Assembly (NCBI RefSeq): GCF_014041935.1 | Contig: NZ_CP059491.1 | Coordinates: forward strand, 3,596,001 to 3,660,000 | DNA: 64,000 bases | Direction of reading: 5' to 3' | Source of the DNA: Gordonia jinghuaiqii | GTDB lineage: Bacteria > Actinomycetota > Actinomycetes > Mycobacteriales > Mycobacteriaceae | Part shown: in pieces, positions 15,144-24,427 of the stretch | How positions within the stretch are numbered: position 1 is the stretch's first letter | Layout of the letters: every line of letters begins with the position of its first letter | Position numbers and translations under genes: made by a program | The notes under the pieces: model-generated | Seen by the model: only the letters and a program-made list of their open reading frames with translations | Told to the model about the DNA's origin: nothing | The model's database searches: none

Positions 15144-15854
15144 TCACGAGTCCTGCGCCGCGGATGCCGGCACGAAGTTGTGATGATCCCGACCGAGACC
15201 ACTGACATCGACCACCTGGATTCCGAGACGTCGCGCAAAGGCGGACAGGAACTCCGCATCCAGTTCCTCCACTCCATTGACGACCGATGCCGTAGCCACG
15301 ACCCCACTCAGTCCCGCGGACGAACTCATTGCCCAGATTGAGTCATAGATCGACCATCGGACGGCGCTGAAAGCACCACCGACAGCGATGGGCACTACAT
15401 GGCCGGGCCGCACGAAATGCTCCGCTCGTGCTCCGGGATCGGCGAGGAGACCTATCGTGTGGGCACGATCCGCCCCGGAGATACCCGTAGTGATTCCGGA
15501 GGAAGCATCGACTGCAACACAGAACCGGCCACTGTCCCGGTCGAACCCGGGCGTCATCAGCATCAACCCTGCGCTCGTCATGACGTTTTTCGGGACCGTT
15601 GCGAGCACGAATCCCGACGTATGACGCACCAGGAATGCGGCAGCGTCAGCTCCGAACGACTCACCCGCGAAACACATCTGGGCCTCGAGGCCGGCGTTCC
15701 CGTGTCCTGTGACGATCACAGGCCTACCGGATAGGAAGGCTTCGGAAATGGTCGCGGAGTCAGCGTGCGCACTCGCAGTCGGATCACCCGCCCGATCTGC
15801 ATCGTTCTCTCGCTCAGCGGATTGTGCGGTGATAGTCGTAGCTGATGCATTCAT
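15144..15854 (-). CDS. RibB-like (DHBP synthase fold) protein with altered active site
   Basis: 236 residues, homologous to 3,4-dihydroxy-2-butanone-4-phosphate synthase. Conserved framework segments are SSGITTGISGADR (residues 118-130) and RPGHVVPI (149-156). In canonical RibB the loop after the first strand is DREN-E-GD with catalytic Arg/Glu/Asp; here it reads GHGNAGLEAQM (50-60). The later catalytic GHTEA motif is replaced by RWSIYDS. The metal and catalytic acids and the histidine are therefore largely missing, so ordinary RibB activity is unlikely. The first 35 residues are low-complexity. It is the first gene of the minus-strand flavin/sulfur island, with a perfect hairpin just before its ribosome-binding site (GAGGTGG). 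Its function is unknown. Confidence 0.7.
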   Translation of the reverse strand: MNASATTITAQSAERENDADRAGDPTASAHADSATISEAFLSGRPVIVTGHGNAGLEAQMCFAGESFGADAAAFLVRHTSGFVLATVPKNVMTSAGLMLMTPGFDRDSGRFCVAVDASSGITTGISGADRAHTIGLLADPGARAEHFVRPGHVVPIAVGGAFSAVRWSIYDSIWAMSSSAGLSGVVATASVVNGVEELDAEFLSAFARRLGIQVVDVSGLGRDHHNFVPASAAQDS

Positions 15855-15869
15855 CGTGTGCCACCTCGT

Positions 15870-15893
15870 GTCGGGACCGGTTACGGTCCCGAC
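15870..15893. promoter_or_regulatory. Perfect hairpin/operator upstream of the RibB-like gene
   Basis: GTCGGGACC and GGTCCCGAC, a 9-bp perfect inverted repeat around a 6-nt spacer, end 16 nt upstream of the minus-strand start codon, next to the GAGGTGG ribosome-binding site. It could be a dimeric repressor operator or an RNA stem affecting translation. No FMN-riboswitch consensus is present. Confidence 0.5.
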
Positions 15894-16024
15894 TATCGAC
15901 ACCACCGCAGCCACGAGCGAATTCCCGGGTTACAGCGGTGTGACAACCGACATGACCTCGGACACGCAACGGGCGACTTTCGCTCACTGTGCCGACAACT
16001 CTCGACGAGCGTCGACCTGTTGGG

Positions 16025-16030
16025 CATTCT
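16025..16030 (+). promoter_or_regulatory. Possible -10 box for the leader peptide
   Basis: CATTCT ends exactly 7 nt before the ATG at 16038, the spacing of a leaderless start. A TCGACG lies 17 nt further upstream as a weak -35. The box is non-consensus at its first base. Confidence 0.35.
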
Positions 16031-16037
16031 CGTCGGC

Positions 16038-16142
16038 ATGGTCGTCGTGAATCCGGTCGCTGTGGGGCGCCCTCTCACCAGCCTGTGGGCTGTGTCGGGG
16101 CTCGAGCCGGCGTCGCGGGCCATGTGTATGTGCTGTCGCTGA
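16038..16142 (+). CDS. Cys-rich leader peptide before cysteine dioxygenase
   Basis: A 34-codon frame from a potentially leaderless ATG ending in Arg-Ala-Met-Cys-Met-Cys-Cys-Arg-stop (cysteine codons TGT, TGC, TGT at 16125-16136). A shorter start at 16122 would give MCMCCR alone. It ends 44 nt before cysteine dioxygenase, in the same direction. Cysteine-rich short ORFs upstream of sulfur genes are known in mycobacteria as cysteine-responsive attenuators: slow translation at the Cys codons changes downstream initiation. The placement ahead of a cysteine-degrading enzyme suits that model. CCCCGC just before the dioxygenase ribosome-binding site can pair with GCGGG at 16115-16119, inside the leader frame. 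Expression is unproven. Confidence 0.55.
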   Translation: MVVVNPVAVGRPLTSLWAVSGLEPASRAMCMCCR

Positions 16143-16186
16143 CCTCGGTTCCGACCCGCACGTCCACTCCCCGCAAGGATCTCCTC

Positions 16187-16717
16187 ATGACCTCGACTCT
16201 CGCCCGTCCCGCAGCGCGCTCACTCACCCACCTCCCCACCCGGCTCCGGCCGGCCGACCTGCTGCGCATCACCGACCAGGGCGTCGCCGACGTTCTCGAC
16301 GGCCGCTATGACGCGCTGCTCCCCGCCGAATGGGACACCACGCACCGCTGGTCGACGCGACTCCACGCCGACGACGACCTCGACGTATGGCTCATCAGCT
16401 GGACTCCCGGCGAGGCCACCGAACTGCACGACCACGCCGGCTCGCTCGGCGCGCTGACCGTCCTCTCGGGTTCCTTGCGCGAGTACCACTGGACGGGGGA
16501 CGATCTGGCTGTGCGTGTCCTCGATGCCGGTGACCAGGCAGCCTTCCCTCTCGGGTGGGTGCACGACGTCCTGAAAAATCCCACGATCGAGGTGGCCGGT
16601 CCCACCCTGAGCGTCCATGCCTACTCCCCGCCACTGACCGCGATGTCGTATTACGAGATCGCCGACGGCGGTCACCTGCGTCGTACGCGCACCGTCCTCA
16701 CCGACGAACCCGAATGA
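16187..16717 (+). CDS. Cysteine dioxygenase, type I
   Basis: 176 residues, cupin-fold non-haem iron enzyme that oxidises L-cysteine to cysteine sulfinate. The iron ligands are visible: ELHDHAGSLGALTVLSG gives His81 and His83, and GWVHDV gives His126. The C-terminal SVHAYSPPLTAMSYYE matches the conserved HxYSPP and tyrosine region. Bacterial members lack the Cys of the mammalian Cys-Tyr crosslink, as here. AAGGAT precedes the ATG. It overlaps a rhodanese gene by ATGA, so cysteine oxidation and sulfur transfer are co-expressed. Confidence 0.92.
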   Translation: MTSTLARPAARSLTHLPTRLRPADLLRITDQGVADVLDGRYDALLPAEWDTTHRWSTRLHADDDLDVWLISWTPGEATELHDHAGSLGALTVLSGSLREYHWTGDDLAVRVLDAGDQAAFPLGWVHDVLKNPTIEVAGPTLSVHAYSPPLTAMSYYEIADGGHLRRTRTVLTDEPE

Positions 16718-17100
16718 GCGACGGCAGGCCGGCGCCCCGCACCATCGACGAGATCCTCGCCGACGCGCGTGCACGCCTCGAGCGGATCGACGCCGCGACG
16801 GTGCCCGACGAACTCGCGGCGGGCGCGATCCTCGTCGACATCCGGCCCGCCGCGCAGCGCGCCGAGGAGGGTGAGGTGCCGGGGGCCCTGGTGATCGAGC
16901 GCAACGTCCTCGAGTGGCGATGCGATCCGGCGGGTGATGCGCGGATTCCACAGGCGATCGATCACGACGTGCGGTGGATCATCCTGTGTTCGCAGGGTTA
17001 CACGTCGAGTCTCGCCGCGGCGGCGTTGCAGGACCTCGGGCTGCACCGGGCGACCGATGTGATCGGCGGCTACGAGGCACTCGCACCGTTCCTCGACTGA
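16714..17100 (+). CDS. Rhodanese-domain sulfurtransferase
   Basis: 128 residues, a single rhodanese domain: ILVDIRPAAQRAEEGEVPGA, then the active-site loop CSQGYTSSLAA with the persulfide cysteine, and DVIGGYEALAPFL at the end. It probably moves or disposes of sulfane sulfur, alongside cysteine dioxygenase with which it overlaps (ATGA). The stop is followed by the convergent cofG gene. Confidence 0.9.
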   Translation: MSDGRPAPRTIDEILADARARLERIDAATVPDELAAGAILVDIRPAAQRAEEGEVPGALVIERNVLEWRCDPAGDARIPQAIDHDVRWIILCSQGYTSSLAAAALQDLGLHRATDVIGGYEALAPFLD

Positions 17101-17133: not shown

Positions 17134-18381
17134 TCAGGCGACGGCCGGCCAGGGGCGCGGCGCGGGGCGGGTGTCGACGGCCAGCCCGGTCGCCGGGTCC
17201 GAGAGCGCCGACACGTGGCGCGCCAGTGCCGGGTCGATCCAGTCGTCGCCGGCGAGCACATACCGCGGCTGTGCCGTGATCCGTTCGGTGAGAACGAAAC
17301 CCGACTCCGCGGTGCGCGCGGCGAGGGCGTCGAGGTTGGGCCACGGGCGTTCGGGGTTGACGTGGTCGGGGGTCAACGGCGACACACCACCCCAGTCGTC
17401 GACGCCGGAGGCGATCAGCGCGGCGCATTCCGCGGGCGAGACCAGGTTCGGCGGAGCCTGGATGCGCATGTGCGGTCCACAGACGATGCGGGCCACGGCG
17501 ACTGCCGCGAGGAACTCGGTCATCTCCGCGTCGGGGGTCGAGCGCATCGCGGTGTCGGGTTTCGCGCGGAAGTTCTGCACGATCACCTCCTGGATGTGTC
17601 CGCCCCGGGCGTGCACGTCGGCGATCGCGAGCAGCGACTCGGCTCTCTCGTACAGTGATTCGCCGATCCCGACGAGGATGCCGGTGGTGAACGGGACGCG
17701 CGCGGTACCCGCATCGCGCAGCACCTGCATGCGGACCAGCGGGTCCTTGTCGGGGCTGCCGTAATGCGGTTGCCCTTTCTCGGTGAACAGACGGCGCGAG
17801 GTGGTCTCGAGCATCATGCCCATCGACGGCGCCACCGGGCGCAGGTGCCGGAGCTCCTCGAGACTCATCACGCCCGGGTTCAGATGCGGCAGCAGGCCGG
17901 TTTCGGACAGCACTGCCACCGCCGCCGCTCGCACATAGTCCAGCGTCGAGGCGTAGCCGCGCTCCCGGAGCCAGTCACCGGCCTGCGACCAACGGTCCTC
18001 GGGCCGGTCCCCGAGGGTGAAGAGTGCTTCCTTGCAACCGAGTTCGGCCCCGCGGCGGGCGAGGTCGACGACCTCGTCGAGCTCGAGGTACATTCCCTCG
18101 CCTGCGCGGGCGAGCTTGCCCGGCACGGTGACGAAGGTGCAGTAGTGGCATTTGTCGCGGCACAGTCGGGTCAGCGGGACGAACACCTTGCGCGAGTAGG
18201 TGACCTGCCGCGGCCGGCCCGCCGCGGCGAGTCCCTCGTCGCGGATCTGCCCGGCGATGCCCTGCAACTCGGCCAGATCGTCACCGGCACAGGACAACAA
18301 CGCAACGGCGTCGTCGATCCCGATCGGTGTGCGTGCGCGGGCGGCGGACAGTGCCGCCGCGATGGTGGCCGGTTCGGTCAT
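17134..18381 (-). CDS. cofG: FO synthase subunit 1, CofG-type radical SAM enzyme
   Basis: 415 residues. The radical SAM cluster motif is CRDKCHYC (Cys74, Cys78, Cys81) inside [20 protein letters not shown], typical of CofG and the N-terminal half of FbiC. Further matches are [50 protein letters not shown] and [18 protein letters not shown]. CofG closes the deazaflavin ring of 7,8-didemethyl-8-hydroxy-5-deazariboflavin (FO), the core of F420. In most actinobacteria CofG and CofH are fused as FbiC; here they are separate genes with a Baeyer-Villiger monooxygenase between them. ATG 18381 shares one base with the monooxygenase stop (TGATG). Confidence 0.9.
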
Positions 18382-19931
18382 CACTGTCCCTCTGCGAGTT
18401 CGGAATCGGTGGTCACGCTCGGTTCGACCGCCAGATACGGGGACGGGTCGAAGGTGCCGTTGCGTTCTCGGAACGACGCCGCCGTCCCCGGCCACAGCAG
18501 CGTCAAGCGCCCGCTGTCGGGGTCGACGTACCAGCTGTCACACCCGGTCAGCCAGACCGTCGACTCGCTGCGTTCGTCGATCTCACGGGTGTAGGCGGCC
18601 TCGGCCTCCGGTGAGACCTCGAGGGCACGGACCGCGGTGTCGGCCATGAAGTCCAGTGCACCGATCACGTAGTCGAGCTGGGTCTCGATCATGTAGATCG
18701 CCGAGTTGTGGCCGAGGGCCGCGTTCGGGCCGTCGAGGACGAACATGTTGGGGTAGCCGCTGACGACGGTCGAGGCGTAGGACGTCATGCCCGACGACCA
18801 GTGGTCGGACAATCGACGACCGGCACGCCCGACGATGCGCGTCGCCGCCGGCGGACGCGCGGACTCGAATCCCGTCGCCATCACCAGGACGTCGAGGTCA
18901 TAGGTGTGGCCGCTGCGTGCGGTGGCCTTGGACTCGGCGACCGACGTCAACGCACTCGGCTCCAGGACGACGTTGGACCGCTGTAGCGCGGGATAGAAAT
19001 CGTCGCTGAGAAGGATTCGCTTGCAACCGATCTCGTAATCGGGTGTGAGCTGTTCGCGCAGCACCGGATCGGCGACCTGTGCGTGCAGGTGATCGCGTGC
19101 GCGGGCGCGGATCTCGTCGATGTCCGGATGGAGGCCGAGGCGCTGACGGAACGCGCCGTCGGCCTCGGTGAGCAACCGGTTGCGGACCTCGCGCGCGACA
19201 TCGGGATCGAGCAGGGCGGAGCGTTCTTCCGCGGTGTAGGCACGGTCCTCACGCGGCACGACGTAGGGAGGTGTCCGGCAGAACACGACCAGCTCCTCGG
19301 CGACCTGCGCCAGGTGCGGGACGACCTGCACCGCCGACGCCCCCGTGCCGACGACACCGACCCGTGCGCCGGACACCACCACACCGTCGTGCCAGGCGGC
19401 GGTGTGGACGATCTGGCCGGGGAAGGTGCCGAGGCCGTCGACGTCGGGGATTCGCGCGTCGGACAACCGGCCCACGGCCATCACCAGCGAGCGGGCGCGG
19501 AATGTGCCCGACGGTCCGCCCGGCGCGCCGGCGGTGATCTGCCAGCACGCGCGCTCGTCGTCCCAGAGCGCTTGTCGCAGTTCGCAGTTGAGCTGGATAC
19601 GATCGTCGATGCCTTCGTCGAGGGCGGTCTGCTCGAGGTAGTCACGGATCTCGGAGCCGCGCGGGTAGCGCGACGCCCAGTCCGCCGGCGGACGGAACGA
19701 GAACGAGTAGAGGTGTGCGGGGATGTCGCAGGCGATGCCCGGATAGGTGTTGTCGCGCCATGTACCGCCGACCGCGCCGGCCCGCTCGAGGACGACGAAG
19801 GATTCACGCCCGCGACGGGCGAGTTGGGTGGCCATGCCCAGACCGGCGAATCCCGCCCCGATGATCGCGACGTCCACGTCGGTCAGGTGTCCGTACGGCC
19901 GGTCTTGGCCGTGCACCGCGGCGCCGGTCAC
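18381..19931 (-). CDS. Baeyer-Villiger-type flavoprotein monooxygenase
   Basis: 516 residues. An N-terminal FAD Rossmann motif ([20 protein letters not shown]), the BVMO fingerprint FxGxxxHxxxW as [11 protein letters not shown], and a second NADPH Rossmann motif ([18 protein letters not shown]) define a type I BVMO, which inserts oxygen next to a ketone with NADPH, FAD and O2. Further family marks are [19 protein letters not shown] and [14 protein letters not shown] 19931 overlaps the stop of the upstream CofH-like gene (GTGA), and its stop overlaps cofG, so all three are one translationally coupled operon. The substrate is unknown; its place inside a deazaflavin locus is unexplained. Confidence 0.88.
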
Positions 19932-21067
19932 GAACGCACCTGCGGGATCGGCAGCTGTCGGTGCGGTTCGGGCTGGTGGTAGCGGGTGGTGCGTTGACGC
20001 GGCGTGCGTCCGGCGCGGGCAGCGATGTCGACGAGGGTGTCGACGTCGAGGACGCGTCCCGCCTCCGGTCCGGCCTCCGGCATGAGCCGGCCGTCGAGCA
20101 GCAGGCCGCCGATGTCGTCGGCACCGCCGCGCAGCAGGAGGTCGACGGTGTCGGTGTCCAGCTTGGTCCAGGCGACCTGCAGGTGATCGATGAGCCCGAC
20201 GGACATCAGTCGGGCGACCGCGTGCAGGGCCCGGGTCTCCCGCTGCGACGCGGTCGACGTCGCGGCGCCGACCAGATGCGGCGGCGTGTTGGAGGCGACC
20301 ATCGGCATCAGGATCAGCTCGGTGAATCCGCCCGTGCGGCGCTGGATTCCGAGCAGCGTCTTCAGGTGCGCAACCTGCTGCTCGGGGGTCTCGACGTGCC
20401 CGTAGACGATGGTGGCCGTCGAGAAGAGACCGACGCCGTGCGCGGCCTCGATCACCTCTGTCCACTCACTCACCGGTGCGGACCCCGTCGGCGACAGGTA
20501 TCCGCGGACGGTGTCGTCGAGGATCTGGGCGGCGGTCCCGGGAATCGACCCGAGGCCGGCGGCGCGGAGCCGGCGAAGGTGGTCGGCGACGGAGACGCCC
20601 GAACGGACCGCGCCGTCGACGATCTCCGGCGGGCGGTAGGCGTGCAGGTGCAGGCCCTCGGCCGCAGCGGTGATCTCCTCGACCAATCGCACGTAGTCGT
20701 CGGCGGGCAGGCCCGCGGGCAACGGGCCCTGCATGCACACCTCGGTGGCACCCAGCTCGACCGCCTCGGTGACCAACTCGGCCAGGGTCGGCCCGTCCGG
20801 GCCCAGCCGACTGACGATGCCGGTGTCGAAGTTGCGGTTGACGACGAAGGTCAGCGACCCGGGATCGGTGACGCGCACCCGCACGGCGTCGGCGAGCGCA
20901 CAGAGCTCCTCCAGCTCCTGTCCGGAGGCACCGAGCAACGCGACCCAGCCCTGATCGTCCAGGACATCTGGGCCGAGGGCTGTCGGATCGTCACGAACAC
21001 GGCGCAGTGCTGCCGTGACGCGCTCGGTCGGGGCCGTGATGTCGTCGGCCCACGCGCGCAGAACCAT
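19928..21067 (-). CDS. CofH-like protein lacking the radical-SAM cysteines
   Basis: 379 residues. It aligns along its length with CofH / the FbiC C-terminal half: FVVNRN (74-79), ELGATEVCMQG (104-114), GLGSIPGTAAQILDD, YGHVETPEQQVAHL, GGFTELILMPMV, GGADDIGG and the closing GRTPRQRTT. In CofH the NRN is followed by a roughly 34-residue segment holding CxxxCxxC. Here only about 15 residues (FDTGIVSRLGPDGPT) lie before the next conserved helix, and no cysteine is present; the only early cysteines are Cys56 and Cys111. It therefore cannot bind the SAM-cleaving [4Fe-4S] cluster in the normal way. ATG 21067 is supported by a TAGAGT box 7 nt upstream. Inference: a pseudo-CofH with a structural or new role. 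Confidence 0.8.
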   Translation of the reverse strand: MVLRAWADDITAPTERVTAALRRVRDDPTALGPDVLDDQGWVALLGASGQELEELCALADAVRVRVTDPGSLTFVVNRNFDTGIVSRLGPDGPTLAELVTEAVELGATEVCMQGPLPAGLPADDYVRLVEEITAAAEGLHLHAYRPPEIVDGAVRSGVSVADHLRRLRAAGLGSIPGTAAQILDDTVRGYLSPTGSAPVSEWTEVIEAAHGVGLFSTATIVYGHVETPEQQVAHLKTLLGIQRRTGGFTELILMPMVASNTPPHLVGAATSTASQRETRALHAVARLMSVGLIDHLQVAWTKLDTDTVDLLLRGGADDIGGLLLDGRLMPEAGPEAGRVLDVDTLVDIAARAGRTPRQRTTRYHQPEPHRQLPIPQVRS

Positions 21068-21147: not shown

Positions 21148-21561
21148 TCAGCGAGGTTCGGGCAGGCGGTTGGTCCAACTCAGGGCGACCGCCGGCCCCA
21201 CCCCGAGAGCGAGCAGCAACACGGTCTGCACCAGGTAGTCACCGCCCGGGGTGAGGATCACGTCGCCGCCCGGCCCCGGGACGGCGCCCGCGACGAGCAC
21301 GACGAGCCCCCAGGCGCCCAGCGGCCCGTAGCGCAGCGGCGTCGAGGTGAAACCCGCCGCGAGCCAGAGCAGCACGGCGTTGACCACCCCGGCCAGCACC
21401 GCCGCGACCGGCAGGGCCACACCACCGAACCGCTGGTAGGCGAAGGCCACGCTGAGCAGCCCCACCGCGAGTCCGTCGATGATCAGGAATCCGAGCAGCA
21501 GCCGATCAACGAGGCTGTTACGTGAGGAGTCGCTGCGCGCAGGCCGGGAGGGTCCTGCCAT
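21148..21561 (-). CDS. Conserved four-helix membrane protein next to mshB
   Basis: 137 residues with four hydrophobic segments (LLLGFLIIDGLAVGLLSVAF; VALPVAAVLAGVVNAVLLWL; YGPLGAWGLVVLVAGAV; YLVQTVLLLALGVGPAVAL). Its ATG overlaps the mshB stop (TGATG), and a small hypothetical gene at this place is also what I recall beside mycobacterial mshB. No function is known. A GTG one codon earlier is an alternative start. Confidence 0.7.
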   Translation of the reverse strand: MAGPSRPARSDSSRNSLVDRLLLGFLIIDGLAVGLLSVAFAYQRFGGVALPVAAVLAGVVNAVLLWLAAGFTSTPLRYGPLGAWGLVVLVAGAVPGPGGDVILTPGGDYLVQTVLLLALGVGPAVALSWTNRLPEPR

Positions 21562-22469
21562 CACTCGGCCCAGGTGATACCGGCGAACAGGTCCGACTCA
21601 CGCTTGCCCTCGAGCGGATCGTGCCGGTCGGGTTCGGTGAGGATGAAGTGTTCGTGATCGGAGATGGGTTGCAGGATGTTGTTCGACAGCGCGTATTCGG
21701 TTCCCGACGCCGCGACGGTCACCTGGGTGGCGTGCGCGGCGAGTGCCGCGACCTTCTGCGCGTAGTGGGCGCGGATGTCGATCTCGGTGGTGATCGCCTC
21801 GTCGGGGTAGCTCGGCAGCTCCCCCGGACCGGGCATGCGCCACCCGGCGGGCACATCGGCCACACGGGCGAGGCCTGCGGCCAGTGCGCTCCGTTCGGTG
21901 ATCGACTCGTAGAGCTTCACCGGCCCGCCGCCGGATTCCCGGGCCCGTGCCACCGCGGCGACGGTGACCTCGTGCACGAGTCGGTGATCGGGGTGTCCGT
22001 AGGTGCCCGAGGCGTCGTAGCTGACGACCACCTGTGGGGCGAAGTCGATCAGGACGTCGAGGAGCGCACGGACCGGATCGTCGAACGGCGCCCCGACGAG
22101 CGCGCGCGGATGGTTCGCCGACGGGGCGCCGGCCATACCGGAGTCGCGCCAGCGCCCGGCGCCGCCGAGGAAGCGCGGTGTCAGCGTCGGACCGTCGGTG
22201 GGGCTCAGCGCCCGCAGTGCCCGGGTCAGCTCGAGGATGCGATAGCCGCCGAGCTGATCGGCTCCGCCGTCCGCGACGAGCTGCGCCCACTCGTCGCCGA
22301 TGACCTCACCCTCCTCGCCGAGTGTGAACGTCAGCACCCGCACGTCGACGCCTTCGGCGAGGTACCGGGCGATGGTGCCGCCGGTCATGATCGTCTCGTC
22401 GTCGGGATGCGCATGGACCAGCAACAGCCGCCGGCCCGGCGTGGATCCGGAGTCCGCGATGGGTGTCAC
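21561..22469 (-). CDS. mshB: Mycothiol deacetylase (GlcNAc-Ins deacetylase)
   Basis: 302 residues, PIG-L/LmbE-type zinc deacetylase acting on 1-D-myo-inosityl-2-acetamido-2-deoxy-glucopyranoside in mycothiol synthesis. The zinc motif AHPDDETIMTGG is near the N-terminus and the third ligand lies in YDASGTYGHPDHRLVHEV. Both match MshB rather than the related Mca by length and context. GTG 22469 overlaps the stop of the lpqW-like gene (GTGA). The longer frame upstream is inside lpqW and is rejected. Confidence 0.92.
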   Translation of the reverse strand: MTPIADSGSTPGRRLLLVHAHPDDETIMTGGTIARYLAEGVDVRVLTFTLGEEGEVIGDEWAQLVADGGADQLGGYRILELTRALRALSPTDGPTLTPRFLGGAGRWRDSGMAGAPSANHPRALVGAPFDDPVRALLDVLIDFAPQVVVSYDASGTYGHPDHRLVHEVTVAAVARARESGGGPVKLYESITERSALAAGLARVADVPAGWRMPGPGELPSYPDEAITTEIDIRAHYAQKVAALAAHATQVTVAASGTEYALSNNILQPISDHEHFILTEPDRHDPLEGKRESDLFAGITWAE

Positions 22470-24427
22470 GAGAGTTCCCAGTCGACCGCGGTCCCGAAGA
22501 TCGACACCTGGATGGGACCGGTGAGAGGCACGTCGCGCACGGCGGGCGTGACGCCGACGACCATCGAATCCTGGTACAGCGGAAGGTAGATCGCCTGTGC
22601 GGCGAGCAGCGGCTCGGCCTCGTCGAGGGTGTCGGTCGGGTCCTCCTCGGACAGCGCGGTCCGCGCGAGTTCGATCAGGCGGGGATCGCACAGCCCCGAG
22701 ACGTTGCTGGCATAGCTGTCACCGGCATCGGTGCCGCCGGGTGCGACGCTGGTCGGCGTGGGCGGCGTGGCAGGTGACGGCTCGGTCCCGGGCTTGGGCT
22801 GGTTGCAGTCGACCTGCGAGGCCAGCGACGCGGCGGGCGGCACACCCAGACCGTTCCAGCCGACGACGAGGTCGACCCGCTTGGTGGTGAGCGCGGACCC
22901 GTACAGCTCGCCGTTGGGCATGGTGACGACCTGCGCACGCACCCCCGCGCCGCGCAACTGGTCGACGATGCTCGCCGCGGCCGAGGTGGCGCGCGGGTCA
23001 CCGGCGACGGCGCCCACCCGCACGATCAGATCCTGGCCGTCCTTCTGGACCGGCAGCAGCCCCTCGGGCAGCTCGGGGACCTCGACCGCACCGGGAACCG
23101 GTGTCTGGCTGGGACCGGACGACGATCCGGCAGCCGACGGCGCCGGAGACGACGAAGCTGACGACGAGGGTTCTGACGCAGAGGGCACCGGCGACGCCGA
23201 ACCGACGGGCTCGGGTGCGGCCCGCCGGTATCCGGCGGCGGCCAGCAGAGCATCCACCTCGGCGGGGCGCGGACGGGGTCGCGAGACCGGGCGGTACCCG
23301 GGATCCGACGGTGCGAACACCGTGTTGGCATACGGTTCGACGACCCAGTCACCCGCACCGGCGAAGGTGGTCAGGCGCGGATCGATCAGGCCGAGGACCG
23401 CGCGCCGGACATCGAGTGAACTCATCGCCTCGGTGCGCGCGTTCACGCTGACACCGAGCGACCGGGACGTCAGACTGCGTGCGGTCTCCAACCCCGGCAG
23501 CGCGACCAGCTCGGCGTCGGTCGCCGGGGAGGCACCGAGGGCGACGATGGCCGAGTCGCCCGAGCGGACGGAGTCGAGCATCTGTGCCGAGCTGCCCGCA
23601 CGGCGCAGGACGATCTGGTCGAGCCGTGGCGGCTTGACCCAGTACCGGTCGTTGCGGGCCAGGCGCACCTCGTCGCGCGTCTTGTCGATCCCGACGATCG
23701 CGAAGGGTCCCGCCGACACCGGCTTACCGGCGTCCATCCCGGTCTGGAAGCCAGCGGGCGCGCCCTTGAGGACGTGGCTCGGCAACAGACCGGTGAACAG
23801 CTCACGCCACGCCGGATACGGACGTTCGAACCTGACCTCGACAACCTTCCCGCCCGCACTGGACGCGACGGAGTCGATGAGCCGGTAACCCGCGGGCGCC
23901 ACGACATTGGGCTGGCGTGACATCTGCTGCCACAGGTAGCTGAAGTCGTCGCCCGTCACCGGCAGGCCGTCGGACCACTGCGCGTCGGTGTGGATCCGAT
24001 AGGTCACGGTGAACGGCTGACGTGAGGTCACCTCGGCGGAGGTGACGAAGGAACTCTGCAGTTCCCACACCGTGCCGCCGGGCGTCTGCACCGGCGCGAA
24101 CGCACTGGGCAGCGTCATCGCCGCGACCGCGGTGGTCACCGGGTTCTGATCCGCCGCGATGTGCGGGTTGAACCCGGCGCCCACCGAGTCGGTGGCGATG
24201 TAGATCGTCTTCTCCACCGGATATTCGGTCGGCGTGGGCGGCGGCCCGGTGTCGCGGACGGGCGGCGGCGGGTCGGACATGCACGCCGTCAGGACGACGA
24301 GCAGTGCGACGCCGCACGAGAGCAGCCCGAGCGTCCGGCGCCGGACCCGGCTCCCGGATTCGCGGCCCGGTGCCAGGCCCTCCGCCGAACGCTCTTGCCT
24401 CGCGCGATTCACCTCGGATACCCCCAT
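22466..24427 (-). CDS. lpqW: LpqW-like lipoprotein, family 5 solute-binding fold
   Basis: 653 residues. A lipoprotein signal (LLSCGVALLVVLTAC, lipobox LTAC) is followed by a peptide/nickel solute-binding (SBP family 5) fold: VTYRIHTDAQWSDGLPVTGD, FAIVGIDKTRDEVRLARND, then a long Ser/Pro low-complexity linker in the C-terminal half. In mycobacteria LpqW influences the balance of polar phosphatidylinositol mannosides and lipomannan/lipoarabinomannan and is not part of a transporter; no permease is adjacent here. It lies between typA and mshB, in the order I recall from M. tuberculosis, which supports the name. ATG 24427 is one of several possible starts. Confidence 0.78.
   Translation of the reverse strand: MGVSEVNRARQERSAEGLAPGRESGSRVRRRTLGLLSCGVALLVVLTACMSDPPPPVRDTGPPPTPTEYPVEKTIYIATDSVGAGFNPHIAADQNPVTTAVAAMTLPSAFAPVQTPGGTVWELQSSFVTSAEVTSRQPFTVTYRIHTDAQWSDGLPVTGDDFSYLWQQMSRQPNVVAPAGYRLIDSVASSAGGKVVEVRFERPYPAWRELFTGLLPSHVLKGAPAGFQTGMDAGKPVSAGPFAIVGIDKTRDEVRLARNDRYWVKPPRLDQIVLRRAGSSAQMLDSVRSGDSAIVALGASPATDAELVALPGLETARSLTSRSLGVSVNARTEAMSSLDVRRAVLGLIDPRLTTFAGAGDWVVEPYANTVFAPSDPGYRPVSRPRPRPAEVDALLAAAGYRRAAPEPVGSASPVPSASEPSSSASSSPAPSAAGSSSGPSQTPVPGAVEVPELPEGLLPVQKDGQDLIVRVGAVAGDPRATSAAASIVDQLRGAGVRAQVVTMPNGELYGSALTTKRVDLVVGWNGLGVPPAASLASQVDCNQPKPGTEPSPATPPTPTSVAPGGTDAGDSYASNVSGLCDPRLIELARTALSEEDPTDTLDEAEPLLAAQAIYLPLYQDSMVVGVTPAVRDVPLTGPIQVSIFGTAVDWELS

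Follow-up and report, generated by a model that had tools for sequence, protein, structure and literature searches.

A 64,000-nucleotide stretch of the Gordonia jinghuaiqii genome (contig NZ_CP059491.1, positions 3,596,001 to 3,660,000; the whole stretch is called the window here) carries a three-gene operon related to the synthase of FO (7,8-didemethyl-8-hydroxy-5-deazariboflavin), the deazaflavin core of coenzyme F420. A CofH homologue lacking the cysteine motif of radical S-adenosylmethionine (SAM) enzymes, here termed CofH*, is followed by a Baeyer-Villiger monooxygenase (BVMO) and by an intact CofG, all on the minus strand of a genome represented by a single contig of 5.18 Mb and given as 100% complete. 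The features of this trio are as follows.

21067-19928, minus strand: CofH*, CofH homologue without the radical SAM motif CxxxCxxC; ATG start, 379 residues
20786-20830, minus strand: remnant of the cluster loop of CofH*, residues 80-94 after NRN, from the alignment
19931-19928, minus strand: GTGA overlap of the CofH* stop and the BVMO start (translational coupling), from the sequence
19931-18381, minus strand: type I BVMO-like flavoprotein monooxygenase; GTG start, 516 residues
19392-19424, minus strand: BVMO fingerprint FxGxxxHxxxW, 11 residues, from the sequence
around 18381, minus strand: TGATG coupling of the BVMO stop and the CofG start, from the sequence
18381-17134, minus strand: CofG, intact radical SAM enzyme; ATG start, 415 residues
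18139-18162, minus strand: CofG cluster motif CRDKCHYC, from the sequence

A preliminary description of this locus recognized three coupled genes in the order CofH-like, BVMO and CofG, and both overlaps are indeed present, as are the CRDKCHYC motif of CofG, the intact BVMO fingerprint and the NRN, GATEVCMQG, IPGTAAQILDD and PRQRTT motifs that it ascribed to the CofH-like protein. Its statement that about 20 residues containing CxxxCxxC have been lost is right about the motif, which is absent from the frame, whereas alignment with FbiC shows the segment from NRN to the next helix to be shorter by about 17 residues, with none of the three cluster cysteines. The CofH/MqnE barrel fold is retained, and NCBIfam CofH models match CofH* strongly without reaching their cut-offs, TIGR03551 (CofH) giving 290.3 bits against 374.1. 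Pfam Radical_SAM reaches 28.5 bits against a cut-off of 29.5, and the cut-off of PF19288, the CofH/MqnC C-terminal region, is barely exceeded (27.6 versus 27.0 bits). Neither CofH* nor CofG reaches the 1018-bit cut-off of the FbiC fusion model NF006687, the two being separate genes with a single cluster motif. Eleven of the 49 columns common to CofH-, MqnC- and MqnE-type rows are lost in CofH*, namely seven in the cluster loop, two (G and P) in the GG..P motif, the Glu that follows PGTAA and one further Glu; the protein no longer has the cluster, SAM and putative ribose motifs. Of 68 CofH-specific columns, 13 are retained in all 30 Gordonia CofH* rows, and the invariant CofH-specific polar residues are His156, Asp201, Glu265, Arg294, His297 and Lys317 (numbered on the cropped L063 domain).

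CxxxCxxC is absent from every Gordonia CofH* frame (0 of 30, the window's own included) and from all 120 database homologues among the matches listed, one of which is near-identical to the CofH* of the window; it occurs twice in each of the 11 FbiC frames read out. Since the motif is missing from 29 of 29 related loci as well as from the listed homologues, a sequencing error, which the preliminary description had considered, does not account for its absence, and the examined relatives that share this gene order include none with an intact CofH motif. The ratios of nonsynonymous to synonymous substitution rates (dN/dS) in ten pairs are low, at 0.10-0.23 for CofH*, 0.07-0.18 for the BVMO and 0.06-0.11 for CofG. 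Together with the consistent absence of the motif, these values rule out a sequencing error, a pseudogene or a strain-specific deletion.

In the BVMO, FxGxxxHxxxW is flanked by two GxGxx[GA] nucleotide-binding motifs, as in type I BVMOs, and the fingerprint recurs in 29 of 29 relatives. D69, K304 and R305 are invariant in 18 rows and align with steroid monooxygenase; the Arg and Asp are conserved active-site residues of type I BVMOs. Steroid, cyclohexanone and phenylacetone monooxygenases are its closest solved relatives. The operon BVMOs, tested with 18 sequences, group as a single clade (99 in the Shimodaira-Hasegawa-like approximate likelihood ratio test, SH-aLRT) apart from 11 paralogues. 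CofG scores 454.2 bits with TIGR03550 (cut-off 213.35), its motif reads CRDRCHYC in 29 of 29 relatives, and it shares 71-76% identity with the CofG half in 11 Gordonia FbiC proteins. Genome G041 encodes two extra BVMOs (L185, 4259-5806 and 14204-15715), 49% identical to that of the window and sister to the operon BVMOs; their neighbours include an alcohol dehydrogenase and glutamate dehydrogenase-like, molybdopterin oxidoreductase-like and mycofactocin-coupled short-chain dehydrogenase/reductase proteins, and those with NCBIfam matches gave no clear hint of a substrate.

The distribution of the trio was analysed in 49 Gordonia genomes, comprising the window's own and 48 relatives of the same genus; all 29 CofH* loci of the relatives and 11 of 19 FbiC loci were read out, and the remaining eight FbiC genomes were classed by open-frame length and identity alone. 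CofH* is present in 30 genomes and the fused FbiC in 19, one of which (G008) shows FbiC twice, and no genome has both (E <= 0.001). The order CofH*-BVMO-CofG is identical in all 30 trio loci, one of them with a frame-split BVMO, and a four-base overlap of CofH* and BVMO, with starts chosen by script, is found in 23 of 29 relatives. A BVMO orthologue of 69-100% identity occurs in each of the 30 trio genomes and in none of the 19 FbiC genomes, where matches are at most 42% identical and two genomes have no match at E <= 1e-90. Both kinds of genome carry further F420 genes: FbiA (TIGR01819) and the F420-dependent glucose-6-phosphate dehydrogenase Fgd (TIGR03554) exceed their cut-offs in 49 of 49, FbiA of G010 being in two pieces. 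In the window's genome an FbiB-like frame follows FbiA, which lies about 28 kb from CofG, so that the operon does not adjoin fbiA. Searches of this single-contig genome reveal no second cofH or fbiC at E <= 0.001 and no second CofG at E <= 0.01, and the proposal of the preliminary description that CofH activity resides elsewhere is thus not borne out.

The FO synthase genes occupy the same chromosomal site in the 30 trio and 11 FbiC loci, beside mshB-like and oppA-like genes and, in all loci except L068, with a typA-like gene beyond; these three names are our own assumption, the PIG-L domain being the one feature tested. In the window, the site is represented by two context genes.

21148-21564, minus strand: small protein without Pfam match, part of the shared fbiC site
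21561-22691, minus strand: PIG-L deacetylase, presumably MshB-like, marking the fbiC site common to FbiC-type relatives

CofH* is not confined to Gordonia. A scan of named genomes identified 35 loci in Gordonia, Williamsia, Quadrisphaera sp. INWT6, Streptomyces sp. NP160 and an entry filed as Kitasatospora arboriphila; those that share the window's gene order and have a CofH* 57-83% identical to its own come from Gordonia species. The BVMO stands next to CofH* in 35 of 35 named loci, and CofG follows on the same strand in 25, is convergent in two and is not in the locus in eight. In these eight Williamsia-type genomes CofG lies away from CofH*-BVMO, in five on its own and in three (L165, L166, L167) as part of an 829-residue FbiC whose CofG half is intact and whose CofH half is degenerate, a protein found in the Williamsia muralis group. 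The Kitasatospora record (L105/L167) bears the same genes as Williamsia and is probably a mislabelled Williamsia. The degenerate half retains CEPGCRYC and is devoid of NRN, GATEVCMQGG, HAFSP and PGTAAEIL; the tree, built with two of its three sequences, groups them with native CofH from Gordonia and its family (99), and their branch measures 1.63 changes per column. Three comparisons among these three close sequences give a dN/dS of 0.30-0.36 for the CofH half versus 0.06-0.11 for the CofG half. A CofH half that is gone or degenerate beside an intact CofG is what would be expected if CofH* and the BVMO had taken over the CofH step and CofG were still needed.

In another family, CofH* was found in three of 341 genomes, all of one genus, with BVMO and CofG beside it in each of the three. 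In one of these distant loci (L175) cofG-cofH*-bvmo directly adjoins fbiB-fbiA, with CofG, FbiB and FbiA over their NCBIfam cut-offs, and in another (L177) fbiA-fbiB lies about 1.3 kb from the BVMO; neither gene was seen on the 9.1-kb contig of the third. None of 35 genomes of one further family has CofH*, and an even sample of 296 genomes of the class, in which six candidates per genome were scored, yielded a clear match in at least two (the window's own genome and one other Gordonia) among the matches listed. Database matches add Rhodococcus sp. HNM0569, Saccharopolyspora montiporae and a Trebonia metagenome-assembled genome, as proteins without genomic context. The 32 CofH* rows form one clade (SH-aLRT 100) that reaches other families and lies outside the native CofH clade of the Gordonia family (99), while trio CofG is placed with CofG from native FbiC proteins of Gordonia and its family (99). 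Acquisition of the whole trio from afar is therefore not favoured; rather, the two placements suggest acquisition of a CofH*-BVMO cassette alongside a retained native CofG.

The surroundings of the operon hold three further genes. A cysteine-dioxygenase-like cupin and a rhodanese-like protein (15989-17100, plus strand) face the CofG gene in convergent orientation. A tblastn search finds the cupin in 28 of 30 trio loci and the rhodanese in 25, but just one of 11 FbiC loci has both; the pair is probably a lineage marker. A protein with a 3,4-dihydroxy-2-butanone 4-phosphate synthase (RibB-like) domain (15144-15914, minus strand) lies about 1.2 kb past the CofG end of the operon and belongs to the riboflavin pathway, which shares 5-amino-6-ribitylaminouracil.

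Gene content, chromosomal site and residue conservation argue that CofH* and the BVMO very probably replace the canonical radical SAM CofH within FO/F420 synthesis. According to PMC8498797, CofH cleaves tyrosine to yield a p-hydroxybenzyl radical, which is added to 5-amino-6-ribitylaminouracil before the cluster carries out an oxidation. How the replacement might work is a more tentative matter. The fullest explanation, that the trio is a complete FO synthase with its CofH step replaced by a quinone-methide route, falls slightly short of an even chance, and a quinone-methide mechanism starting from a carbonyl precursor is about as plausible or a shade less so. With NADPH and O2, the BVMO would convert a carbonyl compound derived from tyrosine (4-hydroxyphenylpyruvate as the likeliest candidate, 4-hydroxyphenylacetaldehyde as the alternative) into a 4-hydroxybenzyl ester and hence into p-quinone methide. 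BVMOs of the phenylacetone monooxygenase type place oxygen next to the benzyl group, and such an insertion into 4-hydroxyphenylpyruvate would therefore yield a 4-hydroxybenzyl ester, from which the quinone methide forms readily by ionisation. CofH* would hold 5-amino-6-ribitylaminouracil and steer its C5 onto the electrophile, so that the adduct is the 5-(4-hydroxybenzyl) compound that CofH makes, with no difference in oxidation level. By our arithmetic the adduct, C16H22N4O7, equals 5-amino-6-ribitylaminouracil (C9H16N4O6) plus p-quinone methide (C7H6O), so that a two-electron quinone-methide route would give the same product without iron or SAM. CofG, unchanged as a radical SAM enzyme, would then close the ring to FO, which FbiA and FbiB would carry on to F420. 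For the proposed BVMO substrate, for the quinone methide and for a catalytic role of CofH* the odds are somewhat below even, and the same reserve applies to the idea of a second, oxygen-dependent FO route in which a former radical SAM enzyme, devoid of iron and SAM, couples its substrates by polar chemistry. The preliminary description had also raised a new pathway; this stands in the sense of a new way to FO/F420, not of a pathway separate from it, given the shared fbiC site, FbiA and Fgd in all 49 genomes and the distant trio adjoining fbiB-fbiA.

Several observations weigh against this explanation or temper it. The mutual exclusion of the trio and FbiC within Gordonia reflects few evolutionary events in the CofG tree, where the 33 trio CofGs form one side of a branch (SH-aLRT 89), and the genome counts are not independent tests because the genomes share ancestry. 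An additional CofH, if highly diverged, could go undetected, 55 of the 68 CofH-specific columns are not retained in every CofH* row and some are retained in none, and the trees are quick ones with long branches. In one genome of 30, G022, the BVMO is broken into two frames (L033, 8482-9956), either by assembly error or by recent loss, and only one of the three distant-genus genomes is more than 90% complete and at most 5% contaminated. In the open literature we found no measurement of FO or F420 for any CofH* organism, and papers naming BVMOs together with quinone methides included none in an FO setting, judging by titles and the beginnings of abstracts; nor did open PMC, on the same basis and with subscription journals and preprints outside its scope, yield a paper that describes a CofH without its cluster or assigns a BVMO to FO synthesis. 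In PMC11852219, on Gordonia alkanivorans, F420 appears once, as the table entry 'coenzyme F420 binding' for a nitroreductase-family protein.

All evidence for replacement fits equally well with CofH* and the BVMO supplanting CofH by some other chemistry, in which the BVMO N-oxygenates tyrosine, acts on another precursor or oxidises 5-amino-6-ribitylaminouracil. Class B flavin monooxygenases do N-oxygenate amines, tyrosine would stay the substrate, and N-hydroxytyrosine would fragment into the quinone methide and 2-iminoacetate; the type I fingerprint and the nearest solved relatives, which are ketone monooxygenases, speak against such variants, which we regard as rather unlikely. The preliminary description had further suggested a modified deazaflavin. 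The product would then carry extra oxygen or an altered benzyl part in place of being FO, and the cell would use an F420 variant. A monooxygenase is at hand, and 3PG-F420 demonstrates that variants of F420 occur (PMC8498797). However, FbiA and Fgd pass curated cut-offs in genomes of both kinds, trio CofG closely resembles the CofG half of FbiC, and the distant carrier has ordinary FbiA and FbiB beside its trio; the suggestion is improbable.

Loss of the cluster and SAM motifs would also suit a CofH* that serves as a non-catalytic scaffold or a carrier of 5-amino-6-ribitylaminouracil, with FO formed by the BVMO and CofG through a freely diffusing electrophile, and quinone methides do react with nucleophiles unaided. 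The low dN/dS of CofH*, its retention in all trio genomes and its invariant CofH-specific polar residues make this very unlikely. Least credible of all is that the organisms no longer make FO, the trio being unrelated or decaying and the F420 genes relics or fed by FO uptake. No direct chemical demonstration of F420 in an organism with CofH* was found in the open literature, whereas the retention of CofG, FbiA and Fgd in all 30 trio genomes, low dN/dS and the distant trio beside fbiB-fbiA are at odds with it.

Compared with FbiC or the CofG plus CofH type of FO synthase (NF006687; TIGR03550 and TIGR03551), the replacement proposed for the trio keeps the chromosomal site, an intact CofG, a homologous CofH barrel with part of the CofH-specific residues, and F420 genes in the genome. 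It differs in that CofH* stands alone without 4Fe-4S cysteines and SAM motifs, in that a BVMO is added, and in that the order is CofH*-BVMO-CofG rather than that of a CofG-CofH fusion. MqnE, the aminofutalosine synthase (PDB 6XI9), is a radical SAM enzyme of menaquinone synthesis; CofH* has no such cluster. With type I BVMOs such as steroid, cyclohexanone and phenylacetone monooxygenase, the operon enzyme shares the two nucleotide-binding motifs, FxGxxxHxxxW, the Asp and the Lys-Arg pair, but the operon BVMOs are a separate clade co-inherited with CofH*. We know of no type I BVMO that works in cofactor biosynthesis.

Public databases call many cluster-less CofH* proteins 'FO synthase' or give them a CofH enzyme name, and such names hide the family. 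The operon implies a bypass of one of the two 'universal' radical steps of F420 synthesis. If true, it would rank among the few instances in which a radical SAM enzyme has lost its cluster and, through a recruited oxygenase, kept its role in the pathway. It might also provide an oxygen-tolerant CofH step for FO production, where PMC11917521 discusses the sensitivity of FO synthase to oxygen as limiting. Many Gordonia and some other actinobacteria thus seem to make the deazaflavin core of F420 without a radical SAM CofH.

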